Shown here in pieces: positions 1,523 through 8,482 of a stretch of DNA of 64,000 nt. Each line of letters opens with the position of its first letter. Within the stretch, counting starts at the first letter, position 1. The notes under the pieces were generated by a model. The model worked only from the letters and a program-made list of their open reading frames with translations. It made no database searches and was not told the origin of the DNA. The stretch lies in contig NC_020830.1 in assembly GCF_000152945.2 (NCBI RefSeq), positions 124,001 to 188,000 of the forward strand, in the 5' to 3' direction. Origin of the DNA: Polaribacter sp. MED152 (GTDB lineage: Bacteria > Bacteroidota > Bacteroidia > Flavobacteriales > Flavobacteriaceae). A program made the position numbers and the translations under genes.

Positions 1523-4500
1523 CTAATTGACCGCAAAAATTTTGGTGTCTTTAAATGGAGAAATTTTTATGTTTTCAACAGATTTCTTGTACTCCATCCA
1601 ATCATTATTAAAGAAAGTATTAGTTTCTGCGACTGCCTTTTTAAATTCTTCTACAAACTGATTCATAAGAACAGTTTCTGTAGAAGTTTGCTCACCAAAT
1701 CTAGATCTTATATATCTACTTGCTTGACCAAAACGTTGGTTAACTGTAATTTCCGGATTTCTTGTAATACCTTGTCTTTTGTCAATTTTACCAAGATATA
1801 AAGCAATTAATTCATCTATCTTCTTATCGATTTCTTTAGATGCTTTAATTTCGTTTTTAAATTTGGTTTTATCCTCTTTTGTTAAATCAGATTTTATTGA
1901 AGCAACTGTATTTTTACTTTCAACCAATTGTTTTACAACAGCAGCAATTTTAGCTTGATATTGTTCTAGCTCTTTACTGGCATTGTATTTTTGATTTATT
2001 GCTTCATCAGATATTTTTAACCTTGGATCGTATGCTACAATAATATCTTGTTCAGAAGTTTCACCATCATAAGTCATTTTTAGTTTGTAAACTCCTGGTT
2101 TTACAGTAACTCCTCCTGGTTCTCTTGTAGATTTACGAATTCTTCTAGAAGCTCTTGCAACACCTTTTTCACGCAAATACCAAGTCGTTTTATGTATCCC
2201 TGTTTCTTTAGGAGCTTTAAATTTTAAGGTTCTAATTTTTGTTAATCCATTAAAAACTTCTAGCGTAATTGAGTCCTTCTTTACTTTCGTTGTTTTATCT
2301 GTTTTTTCGTTTTTACTTTCATCAGCCTTTTTATCATCTATCTTTACGTAGTAAGAAAGTATTGCACCACCTTTTCTGTTTTCTCCTTGATACATTGCAT
2401 CTGCACCAAATCTACTTCCTGTAGGCTGTTGGCTGGCACTTTGATAAGCAACTGGAGGAGCAAATAATTGAATGTTCTTATTCAGGCTATTTTTATTAGC
2501 CATTGCTCTTAAAGGTTTAATATCATCTAAAACCCATGCAGCTCTACCAAAAGTACCAATAACCAAATCATGTTCTCTTGGGTGAATTACCAAATCCTTT
2601 ACAGGAACTGTAGGAAAACCATTCGTCCATTTTGTCCATTTATCACCTGCATTTAGTGATACATAAAGACCATCATCTGTACCTAAGAATAATAGATTTT
2701 TGTTTTCAGGATCTTCTACAAGGCACAAAGTATAACTCTGCACGTCATTTTCATCTACAATACGTTCCCAAGTTTTTCCATAATTTTTAGTTCTGTATGC
2801 ATAAGGAGTATAGTTGAATCTTCTATAATCATTGGCTACTAACAATGCTTCTCCTTTGTTTTTATTTGATGCTTTTATTTGAGTTATCCAACTAAATTCT
2901 GGTAAACCTTTAATGTTTTTGGCAACATTGGTCCAATTAGCACCACCATCTTTGGTGATATGCACTTGACCATCATCTGTAGCAGCCCATAAAACATCTT
3001 TTTCTAAAGAAGTAGGTTCAATTACTAAAATGGTACAGTGATTTTCTGCACCTGTAGCATCCATAGTTAAGCCTCCACTTTCAGATTGCTTTAATTTTTC
3101 TGGATTATTTGTAGTTAAGTCTGGTGAAATTACTTCCCAAGTTAAACCTTTATCAGTCGATTTGTGAACAAATTGACTTCCAAAATAAAGCGTGTTATTA
3201 TCAAAAGGATCCATATTTATGGCTGCATTCCAATTGAAACGCAATTTTATATTTGGATCTTTATGTGTTGGTTTTACTGAATAGTTGTTACCTGTAATAT
3301 GATCGTATCTTACCACAGATCCTTGCTGACTCATAGACCAACCATATCTTGAATCATCTTTGTCTGGCACTACATCAAATCCATCTCCAAAAGAAATTTC
3401 TTGCCAATAAGAATTTCTAATTCCTTGTGCTTTCCAAACATAGGCAGGACCTCTCCAAGAACCATTATCTTGCATCCCTCCATAAACATTATAAGGAAAT
3501 TCATTATCTACATTTATATGATAGAATTGAGCTACAGGAATGTTACCAATAAATCTCCAAGATTTACCACCATCTTTAGTAATGTTTAAACCACCATCAT
3601 TACCATCAATCATAAATTTACCATTGCTTGGGTGAATCCACCATGCATGATGATCTGGATGCACACCATTATCTACACCATAAGCTGGCATTAACTGTTT
3701 AAAGTTTTTACCACCATCATTAGATACATTCACATAAGTAAAAACGCTATAAACTCTATTCTCGTTTTGAGGGTCTACGTAAATCTCTGAATAATAAAAA
3801 GGTCGGTTACCTATACCAGGTTTGTCATTTACTTTCGTCCATTTAAAGCCACCATCTTCACTTTTATACAAAGCGTTCTTTTTAGCTTCTACTAAGGCAT
3901 AGATTACTTCTGGATTATTTGGTGCAATAGCTACGCCAATTCTTCCTAATTCGCCTTTTGGAAAACCTTCTTTATCTGTAATTTTTTTCCAATTATCTCC
4001 TCCATCATGAGTTATGTATAATCCAGAACCTTCACCTCCAGATTTAAAAAACCAAGGATCACGTTTGTGCTCCCACATAGCAGCAATAATTTTATTAGGA
4101 TTTTTAGGATCCATAATTAAATCTGCAGCACCAGTTTTATCATTGTTGTATAAAATCTGTTTCCAAGTTTTTCCACCATCTGTAGTCTTGTAAACACCAC
4201 GTTCTTTATGTTCTCCCCAAGGAGAACCAATAGCGCCCACATAAACAATATCTGGATTTGTTGGGTGAATTATAACTCTATGTATGTGTCTGGTTTTTTC
4301 TAAACCCATAGCTTGCCATGTTTTACCAGCATCTAAAGATTTGTAAATACCAAAACCACCATTTAAACTATTTCTTGGGTTACCTTCTCCTGTACCAGCC
4401 CAAATTACACTAGGGTTAGATTGTTGAATGGCAACTGCTCCTATAGAAGCTGTAAGTTCATTTTCGAAAATTGGCTCCCATTTAATTCCACCAGAAGTAG

Positions 4501-4702
4501 ATTTCCAAATACCACCAGAAGCAGTACCTACATACATAATTTCTGGATTTGACTCTACAACATCTATAGAGGTTACACGACCAGACATACCACCTGGACC
4601 AATATTTCTTGGTTTCATGTTTTTAACCAAATCCATTGAGAATTCTTGTGAAAAGAGTAGAGTAGTAGCACTCAAAAATAAAATTGTTAGTAAATTTTTC
4701 AT
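1523..4702 (-). CDS. Large secreted BNR/sortilin (VPS10-like) repeat protein, 'glycosyl hydrolase'-annotated family
   Basis: The protein has 1059 residues from the ATG at 4702, which opens a signal peptide (MKNLLTILFLSATTLLFSQ). The frame stays open 26 codons further upstream, but that stretch looks non-coding. At least ten BNR/Asp-box-like motifs (for example KSLDAGKTW, KTTDGGKTW, ITHDGGDNW, ITKDGGANW) lie roughly between residues 60 and 680, predicting one or two seven- to ten-bladed propellers as in sortilin/VPS10 proteins. A beta-rich segment and a helical, lysine-rich C-terminal region of about 130 residues follow. Relatives are common in Bacteroidota and often labelled glycosyl hydrolase, but I see no proven catalytic site. 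No T9SS sorting domain is visible, so it is probably periplasmic or outer-membrane-associated. Confidence 0.85.
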   Translation of the reverse strand: MKNLLTILFLSATTLLFSQEFSMDLVKNMKPRNIGPGGMSGRVTSIDVVESNPEIMYVGTASGGIWKSTSGGIKWEPIFENELTASIGAVAIQQSNPSVIWAGTGEGNPRNSLNGGFGIYKSLDAGKTWQAMGLEKTRHIHRVIIHPTNPDIVYVGAIGSPWGEHKERGVYKTTDGGKTWKQILYNNDKTGAADLIMDPKNPNKIIAAMWEHKRDPWFFKSGGEGSGLYITHDGGDNWKKITDKEGFPKGELGRIGVAIAPNNPEVIYALVEAKKNALYKSEDGGFKWTKVNDKPGIGNRPFYYSEIYVDPQNENRVYSVFTYVNVSNDGGKNFKQLMPAYGVDNGVHPDHHAWWIHPSNGKFMIDGNDGGLNITKDGGKSWRFIGNIPVAQFYHINVDNEFPYNVYGGMQDNGSWRGPAYVWKAQGIRNSYWQEISFGDGFDVVPDKDDSRYGWSMSQQGSVVRYDHITGNNYSVKPTHKDPNIKLRFNWNAAINMDPFDNNTLYFGSQFVHKSTDKGLTWEVISPDLTTNNPEKLKQSESGGLTMDATGAENHCTILVIEPTSLEKDVLWAATDDGQVHITKDGGANWTNVAKNIKGLPEFSWITQIKASNKNKGEALLVANDYRRFNYTPYAYRTKNYGKTWERIVDENDVQSYTLCLVEDPENKNLLFLGTDDGLYVSLNAGDKWTKWTNGFPTVPVKDLVIHPREHDLVIGTFGRAAWVLDDIKPLRAMANKNSLNKNIQLFAPPVAYQSASQQPTGSRFGADAMYQGENRKGGAILSYYVKIDDKKADESKNEKTDKTTKVKKDSITLEVFNGLTKIRTLKFKAPKETGIHKTTWYLREKGVARASRRIRKSTREPGGVTVKPGVYKLKMTYDGETSEQDIIVAYDPRLKISDEAINQKYNASKELEQYQAKIAAVVKQLVESKNTVASIKSDLTKEDKTKFKNEIKASKEIDKKIDELIALYLGKIDKRQGITRNPEITVNQRFGQASRYIRSRFGEQTSTETVLMNQFVEEFKKAVAETNTFFNNDWMEYKKSVENIKISPFKDTKIFAVN

Positions 4703-4804: not shown

Positions 4805-4969
4805 TTATTCGTCCTTTTTTTTAGGTGCCCTATTTGCGTCTTTTAATGCTTGCATAAGCATCCATTCTATTTGACCATTCGTAGAGCGAAATTCATCAGC
4901 AGCCCATTTTTCTATGGCTTTAATCATATCTTCATTAACTCGCAATGCGAAAGCTTTCTTTTTTGCCAT
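4805..4969 (-). CDS. Small ribbon-helix-helix (Arc-type) DNA-binding protein
   Basis: A 54-codon frame from ATG 4969 to TAA 4805. The N-terminal AFALRVNEDMIKAIEKWAAD has the layout of an Arc/MetJ ribbon-helix-helix: a short beta strand (residues 5-11), then two helices, then a basic tail (APKKKDE). Such proteins bind operators as dimers of dimers. It is the last gene of the SPFH operon, 16 bases after the alpha/beta hydrolase stop. Small Arc-like proteins next to SPFH and hydrolase genes are, to my recollection, common in Bacteroidota; the target is unknown and autoregulation is only a guess. No toxin partner is visible, so I do not call it an antitoxin. Confidence 0.75.
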   Translation of the reverse strand: MAKKKAFALRVNEDMIKAIEKWAADEFRSTNGQIEWMLMQALKDANRAPKKKDE

Positions 4970-4985
4970 TCTATATACTAATTCT

Positions 4986-5897
4986 TTATTTCTTGATGAA
5001 TGCTACTATTGTATTTATTAAGTCTTCTGAAATAGGATAATCTGCACTCATATAAGATTTTAAATTGTCCCCATCTTTCTCAATATTCTTTAGTACGTGA
5101 TTCATGTTTTTAATAATCACCAACTCAGCTTCAGGCTTAGCTTCTTTTAAAGCTTTTGCATCTACTATTGGCACTTGTATATCTTTATCACCATTAATGA
5201 TGAGTGTAGGTATTTTTACCTTTGTAATTTCTTCAATAGGGTTTAAGGCAATCCATGATGCTAAAAATGGTTGATTTTGTTTTGCAAACAGTGACATTAA
5301 ATTAGGATCTACTTCTTTGATTGAGCCAGTTTCTTTTAATTCTTTCACGTATTCTGCTGTTAACTTGCCAAACTCTGCACTTTGTGCACTAATTTGTCTA
5401 ACTAAAGTTTTATCTATAGTTTCACCTGCACCAGCTACAGAAATATATTTGTCCACATTATCTAAAGAAAGCATCGCAATTAAAGAGCCTTGACTATGGC
5501 CTGCTAAAATGATTTCAGAAAAACGATTATCCTCTTTAAAATGATTGATTACTTCTTTTAAATCGCTTACAAAATCTGAGAAATAGATACCATCTTCTTG
5601 AATAAATTTTGCATTTTGCGGATTTGAAGTTCGTTTATCATAACTAAAAAAGGCAATTCCTTTTTGATTGATTTTTTCTCTAAACTGTTGAATATAATTT
5701 GGTGTATTTCCATTTCTATTCACACCTCCTGAACCATGTACCCAAATTATTAAAGGTTCATTTACAGAACTATAGCTTAAAGTTCCTGGTAATTGAATGG
5801 CCATGTTATTTATAGTAATGTCCTCAGATTTTATTTGACCAAAAAGTGAGGTAGTACTATAAATTATTAAGCTGATGAAGAGTAAAGTTTGTTTCAT
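4986..5897 (-). CDS. Secreted alpha/beta hydrolase (dienelactone hydrolase/peptidase-like)
   Basis: The 303-residue product starts at ATG 5897 with a signal peptide ending near SLFGQ; the frame extends 21 codons upstream into the previous gene, which is unlikely to be used. The oxyanion-hole motif HGSGG is at about residues 54-58 and the nucleophile elbow GHSQG at 133-137 (Ser135). A probable acid (NGDKD) and a catalytic His (MNHVL) follow near the C-terminus. The substrate cannot be told; an ester or peptide acting in the periplasm is inferred. Start and upstream stop are separated by one base, so it is cotranslated with the two-TM protein in the SPFH operon. Confidence 0.85.
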   Translation of the reverse strand: MKQTLLFISLIIYSTTSLFGQIKSEDITINNMAIQLPGTLSYSSVNEPLIIWVHGSGGVNRNGNTPNYIQQFREKINQKGIAFFSYDKRTSNPQNAKFIQEDGIYFSDFVSDLKEVINHFKEDNRFSEIILAGHSQGSLIAMLSLDNVDKYISVAGAGETIDKTLVRQISAQSAEFGKLTAEYVKELKETGSIKEVDPNLMSLFAKQNQPFLASWIALNPIEEITKVKIPTLIINGDKDIQVPIVDAKALKEAKPEAELVIIKNMNHVLKNIEKDGDNLKSYMSADYPISEDLINTIVAFIKK

Positions 5898-5898
5898 T

Positions 5899-6396
5899 TT
5901 ATAATTTCTTAGTATAAGTTTCGATAACGCTTGTGGCTTCTTGTTTTTTCTGAGTGCCAATGAGTATTTTTTTTCCAGTTTTCAATTCTAATTGAATGCC
6001 AATATCCCCAGAAACATTAATGGCAATTCCTTTAGATTTATTCCATAAAAATCCACCTTTTAAACCCCAGCCTCCATAATCTCCTATAGGATCGTATATT
6101 CTAACATAAGCTTTTTCGATTTCTTGCCAAGTAATTCGTTTTGTTTTAAAGTGAAAAGGAAAAAAGCGATAATGAATGCCAACTTCGTCTATTCTAGTGA
6201 TTAATTTAAAGAAAAAGATAGGAACAATACTGGCAATTAATAAGCCAACTACGCCTAAAAATCCGCCCACAGTAAATTCTGAATTTTCTTTCAAGAATTC
6301 TCTAGTGATTAATACCAAGGGCACTATAAGGCTAAAGCCCATAAGTACAATTAGCCAAGTTTGCGTAAAACGTTGTTCTTCTTTAAAAACTTTCAT
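5899..6396 (-). CDS. Two-TM protein with PH-like C-terminal domain (DUF6141-like), unknown function
   Basis: This 165-residue protein has two strong hydrophobic segments (about residues 12-32 and 43-65) followed by a soluble beta-rich domain that contains ITWQEIEKAYVRIY and later LELKTGKKILIGT. That order, two helices followed by a small beta domain, resembles bacterial PH-like membrane proteins and the DUF6141 description, but the family name is from memory and tentative. Its ATG follows the stop of the DUF4177-like gene directly, and its own stop is one base before the next start. Tight packing suggests it works with the SPFH protein in the inner membrane; that is inference. Confidence 0.7.
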   Translation of the reverse strand: MKVFKEEQRFTQTWLIVLMGFSLIVPLVLITREFLKENSEFTVGGFLGVVGLLIASIVPIFFFKLITRIDEVGIHYRFFPFHFKTKRITWQEIEKAYVRIYDPIGDYGGWGLKGGFLWNKSKGIAINVSGDIGIQLELKTGKKILIGTQKKQEATSVIETYTKKL

Positions 6397-6555
6397 TTAT
6401 CTGTTTTTATCTCTTTCAAAAACGACACTTGTCCATCCTTGAGAAATTTCTACTACTCTCCAACCTTCTCTGGCATATTGATTTAGTATATCTTCAAAAT
6501 TTTGAAATCTATTTCTAAAACCCAATTTTGGTTGAATTACTCTGTATTCTTTCAT
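6397..6555 (-). CDS. DUF4177-like small protein (52 aa)
   Basis: A 52-codon frame from ATG 6555 to TAA 6397. The sequence has the DUF4177 pattern: an N-terminal strand (EYRVIQPK), a helix (FEDILNQYAREGW) and a C-terminal hairpin with GWRVVEIS and VVFERD. DUF4177 proteins are tiny and of unknown function. The ATG overlaps the stop of the glycine-zipper gene by one base (TAATG) and the stop abuts the next ATG, a strong sign of translational coupling. It is too short for many automatic gene callers and would easily be missed. Confidence 0.75.
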   Translation of the reverse strand: MKEYRVIQPKLGFRNRFQNFEDILNQYAREGWRVVEISQGWTSVVFERDKNR

Positions 6556-6716
6556 TATTTAGTTTTTTTATTTTGAGTGGCATCATATGCAATACCAAGA
6601 GCAAGCCCTAAACTTATTCCAATAGCGATATTACCAAATATGACTCCAAAGGCTGTACCAATGGCAATGCCTATAGAAAGCCCTGAACTACTTTTAGTAT
6701 TTTTATTATTATCCAA
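6555..6716 (-). CDS. Glycine-zipper-like membrane peptide (53 aa, TTG start)
   Basis: A 53-codon frame beginning with TTG at 6716, two bases after the SPFH stop, and ending at 6555 inside the next gene's ATG. Residues 11-44 are a hydrophobic run with regularly spaced Gly/Ala (GLSIGIAIGTAFGVIFG, then AIGISLGLALGIAYD), as in glycine-zipper membrane peptides. Ends are polar and lysine-rich. No in-frame ATG is available between the upstream stop and the hydrophobic region, so TTG is the likely start. It could oligomerise in the membrane together with the SPFH protein. Function unknown; reality of the gene is supported by tight spacing and composition. Confidence 0.65.
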   Translation of the reverse strand: MDNNKNTKSSSGLSIGIAIGTAFGVIFGNIAIGISLGLALGIAYDATQNKKTK

Positions 6717-6718
6717 TA

Positions 6719-7579
6719 TTAATGACTTAAGGTTCCTGCATTTACTACAGGAGAAGCTTCTTTATCTCCACATAAGATTACTAATAAGTTACTAACCATT
6801 GCAGCTTTGCGTTCTTCATCTAACTCAACAATATCCTTTTTATTAAGCTCGTCTAAAGCCATTTCTACCATTTCTACAGCACCTTGTACAATTTTATGTC
6901 TTGCAGCTACAATAGCAGTTGCTTGTTGTCTTTTTAACATGGCAGATGCTATTTCATTAGCATAAGCCAAATAACCAATTCTAGCTTCTAAAACCTCAAT
7001 ACCAGCAATGGTTAAACGTTCATCTATTTCTTTTTCTAGTGCTTCAGACACTTCATTTACACTAGATCTAAGAGTTATGTCCTCATCATGATCTTCGTCT
7101 GCAAAATTATCATAAGGATACATACTAGCCAACTTACGAACAGCTGCATCCGTTTGAACACGAACAAAGTTTTCATAATTATCAACATCAAAAGCAGCTT
7201 TGTAAGTATTTGTAACTCTCCATACTAAAATTGTAGAAATCATTACAGGGTTACCTAACTTATCATTCACTTTTAAACGCTCACTATCAAAGTTGCTTGC
7301 TCTTAAAGATATCTTCTTTTTGGTGTAGAAAGGATTGGCCCAATACAAACCATTTGCTTTTATGGTACCAACGTACTTACCAAAAAGTACTACTACTTTA
7401 GAAGTATTTGGGTTTACTAGAATAAAACCAAATAATCCAAAAAAACTTAAAACACTAACAATAATATATAAAGGTTGTTCTTGTTGAATGCCAAGTACTA
7501 TACTTCCTACAAATAGGGTAAGTACAATTACTAACATTAAATAACCATTTGCTGGCTTAATAATTTTTTCTGCTGTCAT
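6719..7579 (-). CDS. SPFH/Band 7 domain membrane protein (stomatin/flotillin superfamily)
   Basis: A 286-residue protein with two N-terminal membrane segments (about residues 12-30 and 33-55) followed by an SPFH domain, starting around GKYVGTIKANGLYW and including VSEALEKEIDERLTIAGIEVLEARIGYLAY split across the domain core. A helical segment rich in Ala/Glu follows (RQQATAIVAARHKIVQGA). SPFH proteins form ring-shaped membrane scaffolds that act in lipid microdomains and protease control. It is the first gene of a six-gene operon. The region up to the divergent nuclease gene at 7700 must hold both promoters. Confidence 0.9.
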   Translation of the reverse strand: MTAEKIIKPANGYLMLVIVLTLFVGSIVLGIQQEQPLYIIVSVLSFFGLFGFILVNPNTSKVVVLFGKYVGTIKANGLYWANPFYTKKKISLRASNFDSERLKVNDKLGNPVMISTILVWRVTNTYKAAFDVDNYENFVRVQTDAAVRKLASMYPYDNFADEDHDEDITLRSSVNEVSEALEKEIDERLTIAGIEVLEARIGYLAYANEIASAMLKRQQATAIVAARHKIVQGAVEMVEMALDELNKKDIVELDEERKAAMVSNLLVILCGDKEASPVVNAGTLSH

Positions 7580-7699
7580 GATTGATTTTTTTTGATATTA
7601 AAATGATATCATAAAGATATGTAAAACTTTTTTTATTAACCAAATATTTACGTAATTAATTTTTTACTTTAGCTAAAATTTAATCTAAAAGAGAATAAA

Positions 7700-8482
7700 A
7701 TGAATATCAAAGTATTAGCTCTTATTTCTTTATTATTTGTAGCATCAACCCCTAAAGAAGATGTATATTTCTGGGGAAAAACTGGTCATAGAGTTACTGG
7801 TAAAATAGCTGAGAAACATTTAACTAAAAAAGCGAAACGAAAAATAGATAAGCTTTTAAAAGGGCAAAGTTTGGCATTTGTATCAACTTTTGCAGATGAA
7901 ATTAAATCAGACAGAGCTTACAGAGCTTATTCTCCTTGGCATTATGTGAATATGGGGTTAACTGAAACTTATGAAGAATCAGCAAAAAATCCGAAAGGAG
8001 ATTTGGTAACAGGGATCGCAAAGTGTATAGAAGTTCTTGAAGATGATGCTAGTTCAGAAGCAGACAAAAACTTTCATTTAAAAATGTTAGTTCATTTTAT
8101 AGGAGATTTACATCAACCTCTACATATTGGTCGTAAGGAAGATAAAGGAGGTAATGATGTGCAAGTACAATGGTTTGGTAGAGGTACTAATTTACATAGT
8201 GTTTGGGATAGTAAAATGATAGATGATTATCAAATGAGTTATACAGATCTTGCTGATAATGCAGAGGAATTATCTAAAAAGCAAATTGAGTTTATAGAGC
8301 AAGGTTCTGTGGTAGATTGGGTAAATGAAGTGCATCAAATTACAGATGATGTTTACAATTCAGCCAAAATTGGAGAAAATTTAAGATATCGATATTCTTA
8401 TGATCACTTTGCAACTGTAAGACAACAATTGCAAAAAGGTGGAATTCGTTTGGCAAAAATTTTAAATGATATTTTTGATTAA
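7700..8482 (+). CDS. S1/P1 nuclease family protein
   Basis: The 260-residue secreted enzyme belongs to the zinc-dependent S1/P1 nucleases, which cleave single-stranded DNA/RNA and 3'-nucleotides. Visible signatures are WGKTGHR at residues 25-31, HYVNM, the HFIGDLHQPLH core, and HSVWD. These supply most of the three-zinc ligands. In the family the N-terminal Trp of the mature protein is itself a ligand, so signal cleavage is expected directly before Trp25. The role is probably nucleic acid or phosphate scavenging outside the inner membrane. A TACTTTAG box at 7665-7672 is a one-mismatch -7 candidate. It precedes two thioredoxin-fold genes on the same strand. Confidence 0.9.
   Translation: MNIKVLALISLLFVASTPKEDVYFWGKTGHRVTGKIAEKHLTKKAKRKIDKLLKGQSLAFVSTFADEIKSDRAYRAYSPWHYVNMGLTETYEESAKNPKGDLVTGIAKCIEVLEDDASSEADKNFHLKMLVHFIGDLHQPLHIGRKEDKGGNDVQVQWFGRGTNLHSVWDSKMIDDYQMSYTDLADNAEELSKKQIEFIEQGSVVDWVNEVHQITDDVYNSAKIGENLRYRYSYDHFATVRQQLQKGGIRLAKILNDIFD

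Follow-up and report, generated by a model that had tools for sequence, protein, structure and literature searches.

Outside the flotillins and HflK/C, it is unclear what most families of bacterial SPFH proteins do, and the locus analyzed here raises the question of what ties an SPFH gene to a small gene for a putative DNA-binding protein. Both lie in a 64,000-nucleotide stretch (contig NC_020830.1, positions 124,001 to 188,000; called the window below) of the genome of Polaribacter sp. MED152, a single contig of 2.96 Mb. A first description of this DNA, the original prediction, had listed six head-to-tail genes coding for an SPFH protein, a glycine-zipper-like peptide, a DUF4177-family peptide, a protein with two transmembrane (TM) helices, an alpha/beta hydrolase and an Arc-like ribbon-helix-helix (RHH) protein, and had inferred one membrane assembly that includes the small membrane peptide and the two-TM protein, with the hydrolase as its output and the RHH protein as its regulator. 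We find that the two ends of this row are conserved together with an operator-like site before the SPFH gene, whereas the genes between them are exchanged from genome to genome. The best explanation, which we hold with good confidence, is that the RHH protein is the autorepressor of an ancient SPFH operon with a slot for exchangeable genes.

The SPFH-RHH pair and its variable slot

All six genes were confirmed with their positions, their spacing and their common direction on the minus strand (Table 1). The gaps computed from the coordinates are 2, -1, 0, 1 and 16 bases from SPFH to RHH. TTG is the only start listed in the frame of the glycine-rich peptide, and an alternative TTG further upstream would extend the hydrolase to 324 aa. 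The three genes of 52 to 54 codons recur in relatives, and the mean differences at codon positions 1, 2 and 3 are.416/.321/.566 for the DUF4177 gene (42 sequences),.337/.252/.584 for the glycine-rich peptide (8 sequences) and.240/.115/.502 for the RHH gene (70 sequences). This coding-type substitution indicates that the small genes are real.

To sample the locus, 199 genomes of the family were searched with the window SPFH protein. A strong match (>300 bits) occurred in 84 of them, so the locus is not a chance arrangement; 16 further genomes had only weak matches to other SPFH proteins and were not counted. The 83 further strong-match genomes, fetched with flanks, and the window make up 84 family loci, including one broken copy (G051), and neighbours were assigned by iterated profiles on mechanically called frames. 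Beyond the family, 40 loci were fetched of 50 further genomes with a match in the phylum sample (39 outside the family and one congener), 14 regions came from tblastn matches in 28 plasmid and 7 phage records, and a scan of genome contigs supplied the best 80 of at least 588 confirmed stretches.

In 208 of the 218 loci, an RHH gene stands downstream of the SPFH gene and in the same direction. These 208 loci come from 11 phyla: Bacteroidota, Pseudomonadota, Bacillota, Actinomycetota, Cyanobacteriota, Acidobacteriota, Planctomycetota, Armatimonadota, Gemmatimonadota, Candidatus Eisenbacteria and Deinococcota (by record titles and taxonomy lines, and for some families by the usual assignment to a phylum). 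It was found in 82/84 family loci, the remaining two having the SPFH gene near a contig end and the RHH gene on another contig of the genome. All 40 phylum loci carry it beside SPFH, as do 8 of the 14 loci from plasmid and phage collections and 78 of the best 80 genome-contig loci; the two exceptions there are an Ectobacillus locus and a Verrucomicrobiales bin (L228, L261). Two contigs with an SPFH gene but no RHH, deposited as Enterococcus and Listeria phage (L193, L194), may be host DNA.

The pairing is equally visible in whole genomes. An RHH profile search of the same 199 family genomes gave 85 positives: both genes occur in 84, SPFH alone in none, RHH alone in one (G025) and neither in 114. 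In the phylum sample of 296 genomes (thresholds E<=1e-9 for RHH and E<=1e-30 for SPFH), which overlaps the family sample in some genomes, 55 have both, none SPFH alone, two RHH alone (G233, G383) and 239 neither.

The six-gene row fared differently. Only 2/82 family loci, namely that of the window and that of a congener (L032), have all four middle genes in window order, which led us to reject the six genes as a conserved unit. The linkage outside this genome on which the original prediction depended is clearly present for the SPFH-RHH ends but nearly absent for the complete set, which one other locus has. The slot contains a DUF4177 gene in 44 of the 82 loci, a hydrolase in 40, a two-TM protein in 33, a DUF1648 protein in 17 (E 4e-16 for the one scanned) and a glycine-rich peptide in 10; nothing was recognised in 16, and 19 arrangements were counted including the empty one. 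The bare SPFH-RHH pair is probably ancestral, since the two genes are only 2-4 bases apart in the four family loci that diverge most (SPFH identity 63-66%). The Stenotrophomonas locus L248 runs SPFH, RHH, DUF4177 (PF13783, E 4.6e-8) and alpha/beta hydrolase, so that two of the accessory types of the window accompany the pair elsewhere in a different order.

The slot proteins are small and mutually unrelated, comprising the two-TM and DUF1648 proteins, a family of about 170 aa and, in some Xanthomonadales-type loci, membrane proteins of about 95 aa. In other Bacteroidota (L167, L171-L175, L177 and L180, grouped by eye) the slot is occupied by the family of about 170 aa, whose C-terminus is hydrophobic and which has cousins in L161, L182, L221, L235, L256 and L259. 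Three members scanned had no Pfam match, and a Tubby/LURP-like nature of the family, suggested by a resemblance, was rejected. Two further loci (L064, L096) have in the slot a protein of 443-444 aa that resembles, as judged by eye, a hydrolase of the serine beta-lactamase family. A same-strand homolog of the slot hydrolase was also seen upstream of SPFH in 20/84 family loci (among them L033, L034 and L037), at a distance of about 0.2-1.1 kb and at most 1.2 kb from the SPFH gene, and some of these loci also keep the slot copy.

Table 1. Coordinates of genes and sequence elements at the SPFH-RHH locus of the window.
Feature	Position	Strand	Remarks
SPFH (Band 7) gene	6719-7579	minus	286 aa, ATG start; two N-terminal hydrophobic helices; PF01145
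Glycine-zipper-like, glycine-rich hydrophobic peptide gene	6555-6716	minus	53 aa, TTG start; accessory slot gene
DUF4177-family peptide gene	6397-6555	minus	52 aa; PF13783; accessory slot gene
Two-TM protein gene	5899-6396	minus	165 aa; two hydrophobic helices and C-terminal soluble domain; accessory slot gene
Alpha/beta hydrolase gene	4986-5897	minus	303 aa from ATG; accessory slot gene
Arc-like RHH gene	4805-4969	minus	54 aa; proposed autorepressor
Core operator-like box TGATATCA	7604-7611	minus	exact octamer recurs in other phyla
Second operator-like box TAATATCA	7593-7600	minus	11 bp from core box
-7 promoter box TATCTTTA	7612-7619	minus	abuts core operator-like box
Third ATATC repeat	7616-7620	minus	overlaps -7 box
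-33 TTG element	7641-7643	minus	21 bp from -7 box
S1/P1 nuclease gene	7700-8482	plus	PF02265, E 7.3e-71
Vps10/sortilin-type repeat protein gene	1523-4702	minus	large; PF15902, E 3.4e-36

An operator-like site before the SPFH gene

The spacer at 7580-7699 had been proposed as the target of the RHH protein. It indeed contains a tandem operator-like site (7593-7611), which recurs in 11 phyla and goes with the RHH gene. The exact two-box pattern TGATATCANNNNNATATCA occurs a single time in the window's genome; a second exact site, and with it a regulon beyond the operon, was not found there. The upstream regions of the family share one element with the consensus TATgATATCAttttaATATCA. At least 15 of its 21 positions are matched in 82/84 family loci, and the weakest of these overlap the range of shuffled regions, since the latter reach 15 at most (mean 13.4). 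Searched across the family with up to two mismatches, the 21-bp pattern is present in 61/85 genomes with RHH and in 3/114 others; the latter figure is about chance, because a reversed control pattern matches 5/199 genomes.

The core octamer TGATATCA extends this result beyond the family, where it stands at the corresponding place. It was found exactly in 182/208 RHH-bearing loci, against 2.4 of 218 expected from base shuffling and 26/218 for the next palindromic octamer. It occurs 2.31 times per kb in the upstream regions and 0.027 times per kb in the remainder of these loci. By taxonomic groups assigned by hand, the octamer is present in 41/50 regions of non-flavobacterial Bacteroidota, 11/18 Xanthomonadales-type, 17/17 other (mostly gamma-) proteobacterial, 16/17 Bacillota, 4/4 cyanobacterial, 4/4 actinobacterial (GC-rich) and 13/15 remaining regions. 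Among the 26 RHH loci lacking the exact form, two with regions shortened by a contig end, 23 have a one-mismatch form, which is weak alone in AT-rich DNA, and 21 have a two-box form with at most four mismatches and 11-bp spacing. No one-mismatch form was found in L201, L238 and L114, the last with a broken SPFH gene and a misplaced region.

Wherever a group has more than four loci, second half-sites peak 11 bp upstream or downstream; none was seen in the four actinobacterial loci. In 10 of 11 genomes of other loci, a near two-box match (at most one mismatch) was detected, the one without being actinobacterial. In all ten, one match precedes the SPFH frame by 33-55 bp, and 5/11 genomes have no other match than this one.

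Is the site a property of the SPFH gene or of the RHH gene? The octamer is absent from all 10 SPFH loci without RHH; after removal of the two contig ends with RHH elsewhere, it is present in 0/8, in comparison to 182/208 RHH-bearing loci (Fisher p 1.8e-7). The genome G025 offers the reverse case. Here the 8 kb fetched contain DUF4177 and RHH genes but no SPFH gene, with TGATATCA about 100 bp upstream of the two. Taken together, these comparisons indicate that the operator-like site accompanies the RHH gene, not the SPFH gene. The RHH protein of the G025 locus (L277, DUF4177 and RHH genes at 3777-4180) lacks the otherwise near-invariant Trp22 and Asp25. As these residues are lost where SPFH is missing while the octamer is kept, they may serve SPFH; this is only a hint, and both are also absent from a few SPFH-linked RHH proteins.

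The position of the site relative to the promoter suggests how it could act. We take TAnnTTTG to be the -7 box of Bacteroidota and TTG the -33 element. TAnnTTTR stands 8 bp before the octamer in 70 of 113 Bacteroidota loci with octamer, where TTG at offsets -30 to -32 gave 48 counts. Among 68 loci from other phyla, hexamers like a -35 element have their peak exactly 20 bp ahead of the octamer (15 loci), with 22 counts at -19 to -21; a -35 element was recognised in a minority of these loci. With a 17-bp spacer, the 20-bp offset makes TATCAN of the box the -10 element. In both promoter types the site thus overlaps or abuts the promoter box, so that a protein bound there would obstruct the promoter, which suggests a repressor.

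The proposed autorepressor and its alternatives

Profile and model comparisons identify the RHH protein as Arc-type. A 74-sequence profile matches the Arc repressor (1arq, E 1.2e-4) and a fused pArc (4.1e-9) in the PDB, and the window protein scores just under the Pfam cut-off for Arc (E 0.001, 19.3 bits against 20.4). AlphaFold2 predicts helices, at the expected places, at 13-25 and 30-44 (mean predicted local distance difference test score, pLDDT, 87) and no strand in the monomer. RHH proteins form their strand as dimers. Across the loci, the proteins measure 46-84 aa (median 59, by a rough start rule). Across the family, Arg10 (207/207), Arg28, Ser29 and Asn31 are invariant, and Lys5, Leu9, Trp22, Asp25, Gln33 and Glu35 nearly so. 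No co-variation of RHH residues with operator-flanking bases could be separated from phylogeny. The residues of Arc that we assume to contact bases (Q9, N11, R13) align with RHH positions 6, 8 and 10. The records annotate these proteins as 'Arc family DNA-binding protein', 'toxin-antitoxin system HicB family antitoxin' or 'hypothetical protein'.

We propose that the window locus is a lineage-decorated copy of an ancient unit, in the order operator, SPFH, slot genes, RHH. The 54-aa protein would be a dedicated autorepressor of the SPFH operon, a role that we regard as highly probable. Its dimers would bind TGATATCA and the second box one helical turn (11 bp) away, thereby covering or abutting the -7 box in Bacteroidota or the -10 box in other phyla and reducing transcription of the operon, RHH included. 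The SPFH protein, anchored by its N-terminal helix pair, would build a ring or scaffold in the membrane, and the slot genes would be exchangeable envelope accessories under the same switch, represented here by the glycine-zipper peptide, the DUF4177 peptide, the two-TM protein and the presumably secreted hydrolase. The RHH protein as regulator of the operon was already part of the original prediction, and the way in which the site tracks the RHH gene makes it very likely.

Several observations weigh against this proposal. The octamer also occurs elsewhere in 42/208 loci, and six of the 11 other genomes have either no near two-box match (one) or several (five). SPFH loci without RHH are few (8) and mostly distant, and one of them (L195) is a broken gene. 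Of the genomes with RHH alone, G383 has an intact RHH gene with the octamer about 300 bp before it and an SPFH remnant in between, apparently broken recently as judged by eye, and in G233 the fetched stretch is free of the octamer. The residue at position 8 of the RHH protein is almost always apolar, which is odd for one that reads bases. The evidence for a cognate site of the RHH protein is strong but comparative, and the stress role discussed below was drawn from analogy.

The SPFH protein itself is a clear Band_7 member (PF01145, E 4.9e-22, 79.2 bits against a cut-off of 23.6). In the hydropathy profile, lysines precede the first of its two N-terminal helices and no positive charge lies between them, which suggests that both ends are inside and that the SPFH domain faces the cytoplasm. 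The nearest solved relatives of the family profile in the PDB are QmcA, HflK and stomatin, and by homology to these the protein may form a ring or cage in the membrane. Membership in HflK/HflC (SPFH3) was rejected (NCBIfam hflK 24.3 bits against 159.4, hflC 16.3 against 134.4).

Could the RHH protein act mainly as a structural partner, a tether between its operator DNA and the SPFH scaffold in the membrane, and not mainly as a repressor? The near-obligate pairing, the conserved C-terminal tail of SPFH and the correlated divergence of both proteins (Mantel r 0.86 against a maximum of 0.11 in 200 permutations, confounded by species relationships) would fit. The contact between the two proteins is hypothetical, however, and with either type of promoter the site overlaps or adjoins the promoter box, where repressors usually bind, so we consider such a tether unlikely.

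The fixed complex of the original prediction, in which small membrane proteins and an SPFH scaffold recruit or control the hydrolase as output, appears rather improbable. It has in its favour the tight gene spacing of the window, the hydrolase and DUF4177 genes near the pair outside Bacteroidota, as in Stenotrophomonas, and the upstream hydrolase homologs of 20/84 family loci. The hydrolase (BD-FAE 9.3e-12, Hydrolase_4 2.3e-11 in Pfam) has a signal-peptide-like N-terminus by eye, GHSQG at 133, NGDKD and NH at 266, and is presumably exported, which sets it apart from an SPFH domain that probably faces the cytoplasm. Moreover, the variety of slot arrangements, the empty slots and a hydrolase in no more than about half of the family loci do not support such an assembly. 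Among the products of the other middle genes, the DUF4177 peptide matches PF13783 (E 2.7e-8), and neither the two-TM protein nor the glycine peptide has anything above Pfam cut-offs. A bacterial PH-type fold was rejected for the two-TM protein, its resemblance to DUF6141/bPH_6 being weak and below cut-off.

We judge it very improbable that TGATATCA belongs to another, global regulator and is linked to RHH incidentally. The octamer is short, and the several near matches in five of 11 other genomes, with none in one, would suit such a regulator. It would have to keep one site across 11 phyla, though, and the site tracks RHH rather than SPFH, with an exact two-box match unique in its own genome and a single near match in 5/11 others. 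Small RHH autorepressors are typical antitoxins, and one relative is annotated as HicB family antitoxin, but a toxin-antitoxin unit with SPFH or a slot product as toxin is hardly credible and was rejected, as Pfam and NCBIfam give no toxin family above cut-off among the window's operon proteins and the constant partner is a scaffold protein with RHH after it.

What the autorepressed operon might do is a more tentative matter. We assume that DUF1648 occurs in SdpI and that YdbST are bPH proteins. In Bacillus subtilis, sigmaW controls floA, floT, yfhLM and ydbST, with protection against named antimicrobial peptides, and YfhL is an SdpI paralog under sigmaW together with flotillin-type SPFH proteins and YdbST (PMC8144471). 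Our loci resemble this list in SPFH, in the DUF1648 proteins of 17/82 slots and in weakly bPH-like slot proteins. From this likeness of protein types, protection against envelope or membrane stress is the leading candidate for the role of the operon, although the balance is tilted somewhat against it. The type described here differs in being a single operon with its own RHH operator-like site, not an extracytoplasmic function (ECF) sigma regulon, and in that a resistance function would be hypothetical for it.

A still more doubtful idea is that the SPFH ring is itself the sensor and binds or releases the RHH repressor according to the state of the membrane, a one-step circuit from membrane to gene. 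If this were true, circuit and operator would have been kept in 11 phyla as a plug-in platform for lineage-specific envelope-protection genes. A recognisable operator kept before the same gene from Actinomycetota to Bacteroidota would be a striking case of conserved transcriptional wiring. A constant regulator with a short constant operator provides a handle on the scaffold function, and the variable slot a route to further small envelope genes missed by annotation.

Relation to known systems and neighbouring genes

SPFH operons and RHH autorepressors are each of a known kind. Arc of phage P22 has the RHH domain in common with the window protein, whose family profile matches Arc structures. 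AmrZ represses its own gene via two sites (PMC3325190), and self-repression of this type is what we propose here. Unlike Arc and AmrZ, the window RHH has its own signature of nearly invariant W22, D25, Q33 and E35 and is tied to an SPFH gene, with a TGATATCA-type operator of SPFH-RHH loci that recurs across phyla.

On the SPFH side, the SPFH-NfeD operons (QmcA/YbbJ, FloT/YuaF, FloA) combine an SPFH gene with a small partner gene, as described by Hinderhofer et al. (2009; PMC2636767). The window locus shares this arrangement. Its SPFH partner, in contrast, is a DNA-binding protein, its slot takes non-homologous small membrane proteins, and no NfeD match was found among eight window proteins scanned with Pfam and NCBIfam. 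The pspA-ydjGHI operon of B. subtilis likewise places the SPFH protein YdjI with small membrane partners in one stress operon; YdjI is soluble, and the part of the article available describes no RHH partner for it (PMC8581546). According to Hinderhofer et al., SPFH subfamilies 6-12 have no documented member proteins, and from their Table 1 the phylum distribution of the window SPFH, taken alone, would fit SPFH6 or SPFH7.

In the open-licence literature searched, we found no description of the SPFH-RHH pairing, of its phylogenetic depth or of the conserved operator TGATATCA with SPFH. One partly available paper contains both 'SPFH' and 'ribbon-helix-helix', the latter only in a reference title (PMC8656257), and the accessible text of another describes SPFH genes of Pseudomonas aeruginosa without an RHH partner (PMC13086221).

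Two neighbours of the operon were recorded in addition. An S1/P1 nuclease gene runs divergently from SPFH and shares the operator spacer, so it may also share the switch. Homologs on the opposite strand lie within about 0.55 kb of SPFH in 28/124 loci and 2.4-3.1 kb away in seven more. Just downstream of the operon stands the Vps10/sortilin-type repeat protein gene.

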